Below, one piece after another: positions 2,942 through 64,000 of a DNA stretch of 64,000 nucleotides. Location: positions 97,475-161,474 of the forward strand of contig JAKAUZ010000030.1 of the NCBI GenBank assembly GCA_021817415.1, in the 5' to 3' direction. A model generated the notes under the pieces. It was not told the DNA's origin. It did no database searches and saw nothing but the letters and a program-made list of their open reading frames with translations. Source of the stretch: Thermoplasmata archaeon (GTDB taxonomy: Archaea > Thermoplasmatota > Thermoplasmata > Thermoplasmatales > GCA-001856825). How positions within the stretch are numbered: the first letter of the stretch is position 1; each line of letters begins with the position of its first letter. The position numbers and the translations under genes were made by a program.

Positions 2942-4321
2942 CTAAATCACATTGGTTTTATTTAAATTATCTACTTTAGCTTTAATTCTTTTCGTTATTT
3001 CATCTCTTATTCCTTTCCCCTGGTCTGCCTTGAAATAGAAATATCCCAGTCTTCTTTTCAGGATATCTTCTACAGTCAGTGCACATTCTTCGTTAATTGC
3101 GAGGTCAATTCTGTCTCCTTCCTCCCTTCTTCTGTACAATATCTGTGGAAGATCGCTGGTTCTCATCTTTCTTCCGAGAACTTTTCCAACAGTTGCAGCC
3201 ACTTTTCTTGATGCGGTCCTGTAGTTGGTTATCTTAACTCCCATCACCGAGACCATCTTTCCGGTCACGTCTATATGGAAATCCCTCGTCACTCTGCCCG
3301 GATCATTTCCCTTCCCGTAAAGTGGCCTTATCCCTACATACGTGCCTATTATGTCTGATCTGTCCAGTGCTGGAAATAGTCTTTTTACTGATTCGTATAT
3401 GTAGTCCTTCTCCTCATCCGTGACCTTCAAAGAATCGGGAGAAGTCACAAAGTCGTCAGTTGTACCTATGATCACCGTTTCGTTTCGCGGGATCACGAAC
3501 ATCTGCCTGCCGTCAATGTGAGACTTGAATGCAACTGCATTCCCGAAAGGAAAATGATCCTTTTTCATTATCAGATGGGAACCCTTGCTCAACTTGAATC
3601 CGTTCATATCCTTCCCTGAGTACTTTGCATAGGTCTCGCCGACCCATGGACCCGTAGAGTTCACTATAACTTTGCATTTGACCGAATACTCCCCTCCGAA
3701 CATAGTATCTCGTAGAGTAACCCTGTTCATCCCGTTTTCCTTGATGATTTTCTCTGCAGCCACATAATTTAACGTCATCGCCCCAAGCATTTTGGCCGTA
3801 ATTACATTATATATGACCAGTTGGGCATCATCTGTGACTGCATCCATGTATGTATAATGGCCCTTGAATCCCGGATATGAGTATTTGCCTTTGTGGAATC
3901 TGGGAATACTGTAATTCCTACCTAAGAGATTGTAAAAGAGCAACCCCGCCGCAATGGTGTACCTTCTCCAGGACCTGTCGTCAATAAGTATGTCAAAGTC
4001 TATCCCCTTTACAAAGTCAGTATTCTTCATCAGATAGTTTCTCTCCCTAAGCAGGTCCATCGTGACCATGACGTGGCCCTGTCCAAGATATCTAATCCCC
4101 CCATGAATGAGTTTCGAGGAGTTGCTGCTGGTACCTGACGCAAAATCAGCCCTGTCGACAAGTATCACGTCCAGGCCGTTTGCAGCCAGAATGCTTGCTA
4201 CTCCAGCCCCGGCGATTCCTCCCCCTATTATAAGGACGTCGAAGTATCTGCCGGCAAGCGTACCTAGGTCTTTTTTCCTGGTTTCCAGGGAGAACTCCAT
4301 AGGGTCCCATATCTTCCGCAT
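2942..4321 (-). CDS. glpD: FAD-dependent glycerol-3-phosphate dehydrogenase
   Basis: N-terminal dinucleotide fold IIGGGIAGAGVASILAANG, SGTSSNSSKLIHGGIRYL and C-terminal GIRPL motifs of GlpA/GlpD. Confidence 0.88.
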   Translation of the reverse strand: MRKIWDPMEFSLETRKKDLGTLAGRYFDVLIIGGGIAGAGVASILAANGLDVILVDRADFASGTSSNSSKLIHGGIRYLGQGHVMVTMDLLRERNYLMKNTDFVKGIDFDILIDDRSWRRYTIAAGLLFYNLLGRNYSIPRFHKGKYSYPGFKGHYTYMDAVTDDAQLVIYNVITAKMLGAMTLNYVAAEKIIKENGMNRVTLRDTMFGGEYSVKCKVIVNSTGPWVGETYAKYSGKDMNGFKLSKGSHLIMKKDHFPFGNAVAFKSHIDGRQMFVIPRNETVIIGTTDDFVTSPDSLKVTDEEKDYIYESVKRLFPALDRSDIIGTYVGIRPLYGKGNDPGRVTRDFHIDVTGKMVSVMGVKITNYRTASRKVAATVGKVLGRKMRTSDLPQILYRRREEGDRIDLAINEECALTVEDILKRRLGYFYFKADQGKGIRDEITKRIKAKVDNLNKTNVI

Positions 4322-57509: not shown

Positions 57510-59297
57510 TTAGAGCCCACCTTCAGCGTGGACGTAGGCTGAAACGCTCCGTTTATAAAGGTTTTTGAAAACTCCCTCCTGATTTGCCAATGCGTCAAGT
57601 GTTCCCTCCTGCACGACTTTGCCCTTTTCTAACACTATAATCCTGTCTGAGAGGGTGATGAGTGAGAACCTGTGAGATATGAGGATAAGAGTTCCATTCT
57701 TTGCGTAGTTTCTCATTGCCGTTATGATATTCTTCTCAGACCTTGAATCGATCTGGGCTGTAGCCTCATCCATTATAATAATGTCTGGGTTTCTCACGAA
57801 AGCCCGCAAAATAGATACCGCCTGACGTTGACCTTCAGAAAGGTTCCTTCCCATTTCCCCTACCGGTGAATCTATACCCTTTGGGAGAGTGCGGAATATG
57901 TCACTCATTCCATAGAGTTCTATAAGGGATTGAACCTCCTCCTTTGTTATTCTGGTCTTGGAATATTCTATGTTTTCAAATATTGAACCGTTAAATAGGA
58001 ATGGTTCCTGAAGAACGGGAACTATCAACTTCCTGTAGTCTCTGGTATCCAGGGTGTTTAAAGTCCTGAGGTCTATTGTAATATCTCCCTCATCCGGGTA
58101 CTTGAACTTGAGGATTACGTTAGTAAGTGTTGTCTTTCCAGCGCCTGTTCTCCCAACTATCGCAACGCACTCCCCCTTTTTTATCTCCACGGTTACTTTA
58201 TCGAGAGCAACGCTGCCATCGTATGTGACCCTCATTCCCTTCCCCTTGATTGAATTGGAGAATGTATGTACTTTTTCTATTCCACTATCTTTTTCTGGGC
58301 TGCTATCGATGATGCTGTAGATACGGGAAGCTCCAACTATTGAATTCTGATAGGTATTATAGAGCTGTGAAAGCTGTACGATGGGATTGAAGAACTGCTG
58401 AACATAAGCTATGAATGATACCAGGATACCGAGGCTTATCTGGCCTTTCAACAGGGCGATTGATCCTTCATAAATCACCAAGACTATTCCAACGGCTTCA
58501 ATTACCCTTATTACAGAACCGTAGGAGGATGACAGCTTCGTTGCCTTCATGTTTGCATTGAAATTTTCTGAGTTCAGGGTTCTGAACCTTTCCTCAATCT
58601 TTTGCTCTGCGTTGAATGCCTTCACCGTCCTTATCGCAGCTATTGTCTCTGCAAGATTACCGGTTATTGCTGCGATTGCTTTCCTGGTTTTCAGGTAGTT
58701 CGCCCTTACCTTTGTCTGTAGAGCGAGGGTGAATATACCAAGAACTGGCATTACGAGGAGACTGTATAGTGCAAGTGGAGTATCAAGGTAGAACATAATA
58801 CCCGCTGCGATGACGATAGTTGTTACCCCGGAAATCACCTGCGGTAACTGATACGTCAGGAAGTCTGATATTGATTCTGAGTCATTCTCTATCCTGCTTA
58901 TCAGATACCCAGCCTTAACCTTGCTGAAAAATTCCAGCGGAACCCTCTGGAGGTTCTGGAATGCTCTGTCCCTCAATCTCTTTATGACACCCTGAGCAAC
59001 CTTCGTTGATGCAAGTGACATCGATCTGTTGCTGAAGAATTGAAAGAAGTAAAGGAGAAAGAAGAGTGAGGCGTAGAGGGCAAGGGACGTTACGTTCCTG
59101 GAAAGTATGGCATTAACAGCAAATCCAAGGGCAAGCGGATAAAGGACCCGTGCTATAGCAGTTATTACAACTGATGTGGTGAAGACGGCCGAATTCCGCT
59201 TCCAGTAAAGTATATCCTTGACCATCCGGAGCATGGTCTTTCCGCCCTTCTCCGGCTTTAGGAACTCGTCTTCCACGGCGTCATATCCTGTTGACAT
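57510..59297 (-). CDS. ABC exporter half-transporter, subunit 2 (canonical Walker B, LSEGQ signature)
   Basis: TM domain plus NBD: GRTGAGKTTLTN, LSEGQRQAVSILRAF, IIIMDEATAQID, LISHRFSL. ORF track start is 59366; Met24 at 59297 is likelier. Confidence 0.88.
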   Translation of the reverse strand: MSTGYDAVEDEFLKPEKGGKTMLRMVKDILYWKRNSAVFTTSVVITAIARVLYPLALGFAVNAILSRNVTSLALYASLFFLLYFFQFFSNRSMSLASTKVAQGVIKRLRDRAFQNLQRVPLEFFSKVKAGYLISRIENDSESISDFLTYQLPQVISGVTTIVIAAGIMFYLDTPLALYSLLVMPVLGIFTLALQTKVRANYLKTRKAIAAITGNLAETIAAIRTVKAFNAEQKIEERFRTLNSENFNANMKATKLSSSYGSVIRVIEAVGIVLVIYEGSIALLKGQISLGILVSFIAYVQQFFNPIVQLSQLYNTYQNSIVGASRIYSIIDSSPEKDSGIEKVHTFSNSIKGKGMRVTYDGSVALDKVTVEIKKGECVAIVGRTGAGKTTLTNVILKFKYPDEGDITIDLRTLNTLDTRDYRKLIVPVLQEPFLFNGSIFENIEYSKTRITKEEVQSLIELYGMSDIFRTLPKGIDSPVGEMGRNLSEGQRQAVSILRAFVRNPDIIIMDEATAQIDSRSEKNIITAMRNYAKNGTLILISHRFSLITLSDRIIVLEKGKVVQEGTLDALANQEGVFKNLYKRSVSAYVHAEGGL

Positions 59298-61008
59298 AAC
59301 CACCTTCCTCGCCGGTAGGATCCTCCCGAAGTTCCCCTTCTTCCAGCAATAATACTTTATCGGCAAATGAGAGAGCAGATGCCCTCAGGCTTATCATGAT
59401 TATTATTGTGTTCCTCATGAACTCCCTCAGGTTTTTGAATATGTTTATTTCAGTATCAGGATCAACGCTAGATGTAGCATCGTCAAGAATGAGTATCAGG
59501 GGATTTCTCAGAACAGCTCTTGCGATCGCAATTCTCTGTCTCTGTCCCCCCGAGAGCGTTATGCCCCTCTCACCTATCATCGTATCGTATTTTAGTGGCA
59601 GAGACTCTATGAAATCAGATATGGATGCTATTCTGGTTGCGTCCTTTATGCTTGTATCTGGAGCGTCGAGTCCAAAGAGTATATTCTCCCTTATCGTACC
59701 TGAAAGGAGAATGATTTCCTGAGGAACGATAGATATTCTGCTCCTCAGGATGCTCAACGGAATATCCCTGGTGTTCCTACCTCCAAGCGATATGGTTCCT
59801 GAGTCAGCCTCATAATATCTAGTTATGAGATTTACCAGTGAGGACTTACCTGCACCTGTCTTCCCCGTAATTCCGACGAATTCTCCTGGTAGGGCCCTGA
59901 ACGTGACATCCTTCAATATCACATTGTTGCCTCTTGCGAATTTCACGTGATCGAAGGTCAGTATTCCAGGCTGAATTGTTTCTTGGGAATGTTCCACATC
60001 TTCCTCCCCTCCAGAGGCAGTTATTTCCTGAATCCTTCCTATGGCTGCTCTTGAATTCTCCGAGAACACTATCATTCTCCCCAGGAAGGAGACAGGGTCT
60101 GTGAGCATGGCAAATATGGTTACTGCCGCCACCAACCCACCAACACTTGCCTTGCTTATCAGGTCCAGGTAACCACCAATTCCAATAATCGCACTCGAGA
60201 CTGCGGCAACAGTGAGAGGCATGAGGTTGTTGATTATTACCCTGGTTTTCACCACTTCATAATTTTCGTCATAATACTGTTCTGTAATCGCGGCGTACTT
60301 ATCAATCTCTTTCTTCTCAGAGGCAAGCCCCCTAACAACCCTTTGACCGACAATGTTTTCCTGAAGTGTTTCCCCAAGCTTCCCATAGGTATCCCTGATC
60401 TTCTTCCAGACCGGTCTTTGCCTTCTTGACGAAACAATACCTAGGAAAATCAGGACAGGTACTGCCAGCGCCAGTAAGAGCGAGAAGAGCGGGGAAATCA
60501 TGAACAGCAGTATGAACGCTTCTATGATGAGGAATACAGTTGGGAAGAGACTAGTAAACATACTAAGATTGAAATTTCTTGTCGCCTCAATGTCCATTGA
60601 TCCTCTTGAAAGCAGATCGCCTGAAGTCTGTGTTTCGAAGAACAGGAACCTCTTCCTGACCAAATGAGATACGAAATCCTTTCTCAGATTATACGCGTAC
60701 GTCTGGCTGATGTATTGCCCACCGTAATTCAGTGAAAATGTCGCAGCTGCTGATATTGTATAAGCCAGCACTATCAGTAATGCAATGTGAGGAATAGATG
60801 AGTAGATTCCATATTCTACGGCTGTTACCGCCTCGCCGATGAATACAGGTACGAGCAGTAAAGAGAAGTTTGATATTATTCCGGCTACAATAACGATCGA
60901 AAAGGAGAGAGCACTGTTTTTCAGATATGGTCGCGCAAATAGCACTGGCTCAAGTATTTTCAATAAAGAACCTTTTTTCCTCCTTTCGCCAGAAGTTTCA
61001 ACTGCCAT
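59281..61008 (-). CDS. ABC exporter half-transporter, subunit 1 (degenerate catalytic Glu and H-loop)
   Basis: TM domain plus NBD: GKTGAGKSSLVN, LSGGQRQRIAIARAVL, LILILDDATSSVD, MISLRASAL. Confidence 0.88.
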   Translation of the reverse strand: MAVETSGERRKKGSLLKILEPVLFARPYLKNSALSFSIVIVAGIISNFSLLLVPVFIGEAVTAVEYGIYSSIPHIALLIVLAYTISAAATFSLNYGGQYISQTYAYNLRKDFVSHLVRKRFLFFETQTSGDLLSRGSMDIEATRNFNLSMFTSLFPTVFLIIEAFILLFMISPLFSLLLALAVPVLIFLGIVSSRRQRPVWKKIRDTYGKLGETLQENIVGQRVVRGLASEKKEIDKYAAITEQYYDENYEVVKTRVIINNLMPLTVAAVSSAIIGIGGYLDLISKASVGGLVAAVTIFAMLTDPVSFLGRMIVFSENSRAAIGRIQEITASGGEEDVEHSQETIQPGILTFDHVKFARGNNVILKDVTFRALPGEFVGITGKTGAGKSSLVNLITRYYEADSGTISLGGRNTRDIPLSILRSRISIVPQEIILLSGTIRENILFGLDAPDTSIKDATRIASISDFIESLPLKYDTMIGERGITLSGGQRQRIAIARAVLRNPLILILDDATSSVDPDTEINIFKNLREFMRNTIIIMISLRASALSFADKVLLLEEGELREDPTGEEGGYVNRI

Positions 61009-61363: not shown

Positions 61364-62110
61364 TCAAATAAGGGACAATAACTTTTTGATTAGTGCTTTG
61401 CTTTCCTTATGGGAAATACGGTCAAAAGTTGAATTGTCCTCTATAATTCCACTCTCCAGGAAGTCGCGCAAGAAATCAAATCCGGATATGATTGAAGACA
61501 ACCAATCAAATCTGGCAAACTGAAATGCATCACTCTGAAGTAACGCAATGATATCACCACAATCCTTGGTGAATTTGTCACTTAAGTGGTCCTTGTCCGG
61601 TGTAGTTTCAAGCGATAGGTCATAGTGTCTGTCCCATGCCGCTTTTAATTTTAGCAGGAGGAGCATTGAGATCTCTGGGACTAAGACTTGAAACTCAGAC
61701 TCAAAGGAATATGAAATATTCTTGGGAACAGTCCCGTATTCTATTTCCATCAAATTTAGCAATTTTCCCGTTCCGTGGAATTGATCTTTCCTTGGCAGAA
61801 AGTCAAGATAAATATCTCCGGAATCCAAACGCTTTAAGTATAGTGTGTTTCCTGCAGAATCTCTTTCTCTGATGTAATCCCGGGTCGAGTACAGGTGCCT
61901 CTTTAATGCGTCTTTGAAACGACTAGTTGCAATCAAATCGATATCGAGTGAATATTTCCAAGGATTAAACGAGTGGACTGCCCAGCCTCCTATGAGAATG
62001 ATGCCGCCTTGCCTGTAATTTCTGTTAGCAATGCTCCAGTCGAAAATGTACCTGAGCTCTTCGAACGAGCCCCTGGCCAGAGTGGTCTCTCCACCTTCTT
62101 CATTTACCAA
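61364..62110 (-). CDS. AbiEii-like nucleotidyltransferase (candidate toxin)
   Basis: IILIGGWAVHSFNPWKYSLDIDLIATSRFKDALKRHL, nucleotidyltransferase GG...D.D pattern; overlaps the upstream HTH gene. Confidence 0.72.
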   Translation of the reverse strand: MVNEEGGETTLARGSFEELRYIFDWSIANRNYRQGGIILIGGWAVHSFNPWKYSLDIDLIATSRFKDALKRHLYSTRDYIRERDSAGNTLYLKRLDSGDIYLDFLPRKDQFHGTGKLLNLMEIEYGTVPKNISYSFESEFQVLVPEISMLLLLKLKAAWDRHYDLSLETTPDKDHLSDKFTKDCGDIIALLQSDAFQFARFDWLSSIISGFDFLRDFLESGIIEDNSTFDRISHKESKALIKKLLSLI

Positions 62111-63152
62111 GCTTATTCACCAGATCTCTTGCAGCAATCCGTCCATCCATTCCTAATCCTGCAAGATCCAATATGTTCTGGCACACGTCAACAATCCGAA
62201 CGCCTTTAAACATGGTGGAAGATTTCATGATATCTCTATCCGGTAAATACACCTTCAAGCGACATCCGCCAGCCTTCCCCTCGGAAAAGGATCTAATGGC
62301 CCCTCTGTCGGATGGATTTAGGAGGTAGATATATGCAGTATCTTCCCTCATTATTGATGAACCATGTGAAACGGCAGATGAATGGGCAGTGAAAGCATAA
62401 TCAATTCCAAGCCTGTTGAGATTGAGCGCGACTTCATTTATACACTGGGTTGCTGTACTGAAATTAGTGTTTATAGTCTCCACGAGCAGACCCTCAAGAG
62501 CTCTTTCCCACGAAACCACATTGAAAAGCCTGTCCGTGTCTTTAATTCTTAAACCGTAATCCACAGTTATTATTCCAGAGTCTTCTAGTTTATGAATTAT
62601 GTTGTTTGTCCATCCATATGAGACACCGGTTTTTCTAGAAACAGAAAGGATACTGTATGGCTTGTCAGTCAATAAGGAACAGACAATTTTCCACGCCTTA
62701 TCTGAAGTGAGTCTTGACGGGTTTGTTTTTAAGTGGTGGGAGGGGGCATTAAGCTCAGAAGCAGTTGCCCTCGGTGATAAGTACTGATACAACTTTGGAG
62801 GAATAAGCAAAGTCTCTACACCAAGCTTGGTGGCAAGTCCTTGAGTGCTGTACTTCAGTGTTTTTCCAGCACAAACCAATCTAATCTCCTTCTTGCCCAA
62901 CAATTGTTTATTTATTAAGTGCGAAATGGCATATATTCTATATATTGTGTCTTCATTTATTCTAGGCTTGATTTCAACGAAAGTCAGTATGTCTCTGGAC
63001 TCAATTGCTAAATCTATCAGTAATTCCCTTTCCCCAAGAGATATTGGGTAAGAGTGAATTATTTTTGCACCCTGTGAAATCCGGAGTTTCTCAAGTATAA
63101 ACTGATAAACTGGCTTTAGATCCTCATTCGTGTATCTGTATTTAGTGATACT
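62100..63152 (-). CDS. AbiEi-like winged-helix protein with N-terminal PD-(D/E)XK-like domain; 5' end unresolved
   Basis: ORF track begins at TTG 62903, but the same frame is open 83 further codons to a stop at 63153-63155 and reads ...LGERELLIDLAIESRDILTFVEIKPRINEDTIYRIYAISHLINKQ. No ATG/GTG/TTG in the extension. Confidence 0.6.
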   Translation of the reverse strand, partial: SITKYRYTNEDLKPVYQFILEKLRISQGAKIIHSYPISLGERELLIDLAIESRDILTFVEIKPRINEDTIYRIYAISHLINKQLLGKKEIRLVCAGKTLKYSTQGLATKLGVETLLIPPKLYQYLSPRATASELNAPSHHLKTNPSRLTSDKAWKIVCSLLTDKPYSILSVSRKTGVSYGWTNNIIHKLEDSGIITVDYGLRIKDTDRLFNVVSWERALEGLLVETINTNFSTATQCINEVALNLNRLGIDYAFTAHSSAVSHGSSIMREDTAYIYLLNPSDRGAIRSFSEGKAGGCRLKVYLPDRDIMKSSTMFKGVRIVDVCQNILDLAGLGMDGRIAARDLVNKLGK

Positions 63153-63214
63153 TTATTAATGTATCGCTGATAACTATCAGTAAACAGAGATATTTTAAAT
63201 ACATATCAGTGATA
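63144..63214. promoter_or_regulatory. Operator-like array of TATCASTGATA near-palindromes upstream of the AbiE-like genes
   Basis: TATCGCTGATA (63162-63172), TATCAGTGATA (63204-63214), half-sites AGTGATA (63144-63150) and TATCAGT (63175-63181); AT-rich TATTTAAAAT-like box between on the minus strand. Confidence 0.5.
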
Positions 63215-63236: not shown

Positions 63237-63280
63237 GTGGACCGGTCAGGATTTGATTAAAACTTTAATGGAATACCGTG
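63237..63280 (+). repeat. Dispersed repeat copy E
   Basis: GTGGACCGGTCAGGATTTGATTAAAACTTTAATGGAATACCGTG. Confidence 0.6.
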
Positions 63281-63335: not shown

Positions 63336-64000
63336 TCAGGTTCTGTCTGCCAGTATTAAATCCAGGTAAACGTCAGGCAAGAAGACGTGCACATTTCCGC
63401 GACGATGATCTACGGTAAGGGTGTGTGCGTCAGGACTGGTTTGTATTTTCTCCACGAACTGGAGAGTGTTTGTGTCAAAGACATCTATCACTCCAGGATT
63501 CCCCACCGCAACGTAAAGCCGATCCAAATTCCGGTTCAGCCAAATTACATCCGGTGGTCCTGACAGAGGCCCGAGAACTTCTATTGCATCTGTTCCCAAG
63601 TCAAGACCGATTAAGATGCCCTCATCACAGGCGCAATATAGTGTGCCGTTCTTCTTATTCTGTTCCAGCCCGTGTGGTCCCCTAGCCGGGATGCTAAACG
63701 TTCTGGAAACCCTAGAAAGATTATCGGCCCTAACAGAGACTATTGAAGGCGGATCAGCAACGTTCACGTAGAATGAGTCCGTATCTGCATTATAGAGTGC
63801 CCATCGAGTTCTTCCCGGAAGTTCGATCTTTCCCATCACTTTCCCGCTGCTGGTGTCGATGAAGGTCAGAGAGGGTGGGGCATTGCTCTTTTCTGTATTG
63901 CCAACACCTGCAACCATGAGGATGTTTCTTCCTTCATCAAATGCCATGCCGTTTGGCCTGACCCCAGTAGGGACGCGAAATTTCTCTGTGGCTTTTTTTC
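63336..64000 (-). CDS. YncE-like beta-propeller protein, 5' end beyond the window
   Basis: Repeats TLFFIDTSSGKVMGKIELPG-like, GVIDVFDTNTLQFVEKIQTSPDAHTLTVD; frame continues past 63947 to the window edge (...RVPTGVRPNGMAFDEGRN). Confidence 0.75.
   Translation of the reverse strand, partial: KKATEKFRVPTGVRPNGMAFDEGRNILMVAGVGNTEKSNAPPSLTFIDTSSGKVMGKIELPGRTRWALYNADTDSFYVNVADPPSIVSVRADNLSRVSRTFSIPARGPHGLEQNKKNGTLYCACDEGILIGLDLGTDAIEVLGPLSGPPDVIWLNRNLDRLYVAVGNPGVIDVFDTNTLQFVEKIQTSPDAHTLTVDHRRGNVHVFLPDVYLDLILADRT

Follow-up and report, generated by a model that had tools for sequence, protein, structure and literature searches.

The window is a stretch of DNA of 64,000 nucleotides from a Thermoplasmata archaeon, and carries on its minus strand an AbiEi-like antitoxin/repressor gene directly upstream of a nucleotidyltransferase toxin gene (Table 1), an arrangement shared by nearly all homologues. 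The minus-strand frame from 63152 to 62100 has 350 open codons and is preceded by a TAA at 63155-63153. As a sequence-only reading of the locus had stated, the frame is open from 63152 and its first 83 codons include no ATG, GTG or TTG, the first such codon being the TTG at 62903. Of the 42 non-overlapping ORFs in the window with 200 or more codons, this one has the longest start-less lead, the next being 34 codons. Start-type codons make up 5.7% of the codons in those 42 frames, which gives p ~0.008 for 83 consecutive codons without one. Since no other window ORF of this size has a lead above 34 codons, nothing points to non-canonical initiation as a general habit of the organism.

Table 1. 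Features of the antitoxin-toxin locus, in window coordinates
Feature	Position (nt)	Strand	Evidence or remark
Toxin partner, 248-aa AbiEii-like nucleotidyltransferase	61364..62110	-	TTG start; motifs; hhalign to AbiEii-type partners
Antitoxin/repressor gene, 343 codons + stop from the conserved start	62100..63131 (stop-to-stop 62100-63152)	-	Collinear with orthologues L003-L008
AbiEi_2-like C-terminal domain, about residues 206-343	62103..62516	-	Profile-profile alignment with PF09952 proteins
Winged helix-turn-helix (wHTH), about residues 143-205	62517..62705	-	Weak HTH matches (window protein, homologues); AbiEi_2 alignment
PD-(D/E)XK-like N-terminal domain, residues 1-120; D40, E53, K55	62772..63131	-	AlphaFold2, Foldseek, NucS_C match in L037
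TTG, first canonical start-type codon in frame (codon 77)	62901..62903	-	Used by the 267-aa call
Out-of-frame ATG AGG ATC TAA	63116..63127	-	By-product of codons 2-3 (AAT GAG)
ACG replacing the conserved ATG start	63129..63131	-	ATG there in L003-L008, L013, L014, L016
4-nt leader deletion, abutting the start codon upstream	63131..63132	-	L008 alignment: GATAC----ACG vs GATACAATAATG
TATA-like TTAATAAA	63152..63159	-	Conserved in leader alignment; putative function
Proximal operator-like palindrome, mutated TATCAGCGATA	63162..63172	-	Perfect in most relatives, 42 nt from distal
Distal operator-like palindrome TATCACTGATA	63204..63214	-	Conserved across family
Remnant of tRNA-Ala 3' end, possible attachment-site scar	63238..63257	-	2 mismatches to tRNA-Ala tail, 0 expected by chance

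The close orthologues of the antitoxin gene are six genes from other Thermoplasmata assemblies (L003-L008), 70-89% identical, and in the alignment all six have an in-frame ATG where the window has ACG. Most other close homologues have ATG or GTG at the conserved start position. This ACG, codon 8 of the ORF, is where coding begins; the preceding seven codons are a 5' leader conserved as DNA. The coding part of the extension is thus 76 residues, and the standard 267-aa call loses these from the N-terminus of a 343-aa protein. Conservation in the six orthologues, with a dN/dS of about 0.2-0.4 over codons 2-76, similar to that of the central part of the gene, indicates that the upstream extension is coding and not a chance open frame. 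Two changes are visible in the window relative to L008, the replacement of ATG by ACG and the loss of 4 nt directly upstream (GATAC----ACG AAT GAG GAT in the window, GATACAATA ATG AAT GAA GAT in L008). The coding frame is unshifted and agrees with that of every orthologue. The ATG at 63127-63125 is out of frame and runs into a TAA after three codons, as had been noted from the sequence. No second copy of the antitoxin gene was found in the genome.

The first 120 residues of the antitoxin are, on the modelling, a real PD-(D/E)XK-like domain. In an AlphaFold2 model built from seven sequences the N-terminal domain block has a pLDDT of 58-90, the remainder of the model being poor, and its topology is H-E-E-E-H-E, matching the PD-(D/E)XK core alpha-beta-beta-beta-alpha-beta fold. 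A model of this domain from the single sequence was poor and was set aside. Foldseek matches the domain to Bax1, EndoMS/NucS and Can2, and the distant homologue L037 exceeds the Pfam NucS_C cut-off. Together with the conservation in the orthologues, these matches bear out the earlier proposal that the extension is real, nuclease-like protein sequence; neither homologues beginning at the TTG at 62903 nor a lack of a nuclease-like fold was found. D40 is invariant in 27 sequences. The catalytic D...E-x-K set is complete in the window protein but is not conserved across the family, with the lysine of E-x-K, and sometimes the acid, replaced in the close orthologue L003 and in L006, L017, L029, L032, L035 and L036. 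Since E-x-K is lost in several members, the domain more likely has a structural or ligand-binding function than a cleaving one, and nuclease activity would not be expected as a general property of the family.

Searches of the window proteins with Pfam, NCBIfam and PADLOC gave no assignment, only sub-threshold HTH matches, and an Rfam search gave no match. A PDB sequence search with the single antitoxin protein also had no match; the antitoxin profile has a weak one to ST1444 (2eo0). Homologues were sought in IMG/VR, plasmids and phages, and none were found. PF09952 itself has no direct match in the window genome or in 27 family members, and the full-length match to PF09952 proteins is a profile-profile one: against AbiEi_2 proteins of the same phylum, hhalign gives 99% (E 4.3e-18) over 314 columns, N-terminal domain included. 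The combination of a nuclease-like fold with a wHTH, which the sequence-only reading had thought unusual, turns out not to be so, because AbiEi_2 antitoxins of the same phylum share the layout over the same length.

The toxin gene begins at a TTG that overlaps the end of the antitoxin gene by 11 nt. Motifs I-IV of AbiE nucleotidyltransferase toxins are hG[G/S]x9-15DhD, KLxAaxxR and +DxxD (PMC3985639), and the window toxin has IGGx13DID, KLKAAWDR (with the aromatic residue one position over) and KDCGD. The predicted toxin ORF is intact, with all four AbiEii motifs present. It has no direct Pfam match (PF08843, AbiEii), and its profile matches the AbiEii-like partners of AbiEi_2 proteins at 83% (E 9e-6). 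Judged from sequence, the window module is an ordinary two-gene AbiE-like (type IV, AbiEi_2-type) toxin-antitoxin module.

Nearly all close relatives have two TATCANTGATA palindromes 42 nt apart upstream of the gene, and palindrome pairs spaced 42-44 nt also occur in several homologues at about 25% identity. AbiEi is known to repress its own promoter via inverted repeats (PMC3985639, PMC7319586), and by analogy the paired palindromes are probable autoregulatory operators. The proximal palindrome of the window has one substitution. Imperfect operators accompany three of the four damaged antitoxin 5' ends and two of 16 others (Fisher p=0.03), in a small, post hoc comparison of related sequences. 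The TATA-like element ends 20 nt before the ACG, and 23-24 nt before the ATG in the close orthologues that keep the box, a spacing that would fit a leaderless mRNA. Leaderless mRNAs are widely used by Thermoplasma, according to a review (PMC7531240).

The module lies beside traces of a tRNA gene. Several loci that lack the tRNA carry the 3' tail of tRNA-Ala(CGC) about 120 nt before the start of the antitoxin gene, the module follows an intact tRNA-Ala in L007 (3815-3886), and in L008 there are 3.6 kb between the tRNA (245-316) and a second copy of the tail (3869-3887). This pattern suggests tRNA-targeted integration next to the module. Directly downstream of the operon, at 57510-61008, are two adjacent genes resembling ABC exporter half-transporters. 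The module is preceded by a repeat-type beta-propeller-like ORF (63336-64000) of 220 codons, which is open at the contig end and has no Pfam match.

Several relatives have decayed modules. The toxin is broken by frameshift, stops or deletion beside an open antitoxin frame in L003, L016, L017, L018, L025 and L026. Decay of the toxin next to an open antitoxin frame is as expected of a toxin-antitoxin pair, and the five cases other than L018 may be taken as indirect support for the toxicity, and the neutralization without a complex of toxin and antitoxin, that mark AbiE systems. In L018, which comes from a one-contig genome, the conserved start position holds no start codon, the remaining frame is open, and the toxin is cut at about codon 178. 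The antitoxin of L020 meets a stop at codon 4, again with the remaining frame open, beside an intact toxin. L027 is decayed and has lost the start region. Given these losses of the 5' end, the state of the window has parallels and does not have to stem from an assembly error. The loss of the antitoxin 5' end with an open frame is independent in the window, L018 and L020.

Between the window and L008, dN/dS is 0.37 over codons 2-76 and 0.26 over codons 77-205. The window branch has 9 synonymous and 9 non-synonymous changes, and the L008 branch has 4 and 5, respectively. Neither relaxed selection nor accelerated substitution is detectable on the window branch relative to that of L008. The intact frame, the past purifying selection and the lack of acceleration on the window branch indicate that the loss of the start is recent.

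The explanation favored here, with moderate confidence, is that this is an AbiE-like antitoxin/repressor gene whose ATG recently gave way to ACG, along with a 4-nt leader deletion, and that the module was recently silenced. In the ancestral state the antitoxin would start at the conserved ATG on a leaderless or nearly leaderless mRNA, repress its own promoter via the paired palindromes and neutralize the nucleotidyltransferase toxin. In the window, the ACG would abolish or strongly cut translation of the antitoxin. In E. coli, initiation at ACG gives 0.1-1.5% of ATG expression (PMC6925171), and a review of archaea names only AUG, GUG and UUG as start codons (PMC7531240), so that antitoxin synthesis is probably abolished or very low. 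Translational coupling of the toxin to the antitoxin is plausible, since the TTG of the toxin lies inside the last codons of the antitoxin gene, and toxin translation would then probably fall too. The outcome would be a silenced module with ORFs that have not yet decayed. The mutated proximal operator counts in favor of a disabled antitoxin gene, although the correlation behind it is small and post hoc. The intact toxin ORF with all its motifs speaks against silencing, because an active toxin without its antitoxin should be harmful; survival with this ORF would then call for a low toxin level as well. Of the three causes that the sequence-only reading had offered, a recently disrupted gene is thus the best, a 1-nt frameshift falls to the alignment, and unusual initiation is possible but found no support.

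It is unlikely that the ACG is a weak but functional start that yields enough antitoxin for a live module, with the levels of repressor and antitoxin reduced. In its favor, both the frame and the toxin are intact, relaxed selection is not seen, and the ACG lies 23 nt past a conserved TTAAT/TTTAT, in the range (22-27 nt) of the start codons of most relatives. However, no relative was found with a start other than ATG, GTG or TTG and an otherwise healthy sequence, and both the weakness of ACG in E. coli and the start codons named in the archaeal review argue against it. There is likewise only a small chance that the ACG is truly the start of translation on a leaderless archaeal mRNA, or that loss of the 5' end is a recurrent, selected switch-off of the coupled operon in which the frames are kept open.

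An assembly or sequencing artefact, with a normal start in the organism and a draft metagenome consensus that is in error or mixes strains, appears quite improbable. The assembly is a draft of 88 contigs that is 89% complete with 3.75% contamination, about 0.85 kb separates the gene from the end of the contig, and an intact toxin is what a working module should have. On the other hand, a substitution and a 4-nt deletion within a few bases, plus an operator change, are atypical of random consensus errors; the 350 codons carry no other frame damage, and L018, from a one-contig genome, has a similar 5' loss.

Initiation at the TTG at 62903 is very unlikely. It would give a 267-aa antitoxin lacking most of the PD-(D/E)XK-like domain, and this truncated protein, with its wHTH and C-terminal domain, might still protect, since the C-terminal domain alone suffices for antitoxicity in classical AbiEi (PMC3985639, PMC7319586). 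However, this TTG is inside the predicted fold, past the third strand and the main helix, close homologues conserve all of the part upstream of it, and none of the six orthologues starts there. A natural or programmed frameshift joining the ATG at 63127 to the long frame can be dismissed almost entirely: the 4-nt deletion does put this ATG 27 nt past the conserved TTAAT, a distance shared by several orthologous starts, but it meets a stop after three codons with no slippery motif, an equivalent ATG is present in orthologues that start MNE alongside their normal in-frame start, and the alignment of the orthologues rules out a 1-nt or programmed shift.

The locus thus probably holds a recently disabled or strongly attenuated antitoxin gene of an AbiE-like module, with the overlapping toxin silenced along with it. 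The puzzling ORF without a start can be traced to a recent mutation at a definable site in a module of known kind, and the gene model is corrected by 76 residues. A Thermoplasmata AbiE-like family that Pfam, NCBIfam and PADLOC miss is described as well, with its conserved pair of probable operators. Related lineages have a broken toxin, antitoxin start or operator, and their comparison could reveal the order in which such modules are dismantled.

The N-terminal 120 residues of the antitoxin have the same fold as PD-(D/E)XK nucleases (NucS/EndoMS, Bax1, Can2, Hjc), which differ from the window family in that the E-x-K pair is not conserved in the latter. The AbiE system of Streptococcus agalactiae (COG5340 AbiEi with AbiEii) resembles the window module in gene order, in the wHTH and C-terminal domain of the antitoxin, in the motifs of the nucleotidyltransferase toxin and in the inverted repeats of the promoter (PMC3985639, PMC7319586). 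However, its AbiEi is short, has two domains and lacks the nuclease-like N-terminal one. The AbiEi_2 antitoxins (PF09952, type IV), which are probably the COG4861 group of PMC3985639, differ in that the window family falls short of their model and its window member lacks a start codon. Those of the same phylum (L039-L041) are alike in the N-terminal domain, the wHTH and the C-terminal domain, and in these systems, as in the window, the antitoxin gene lies upstream of a gene for an AbiEii-like nucleotidyltransferase.
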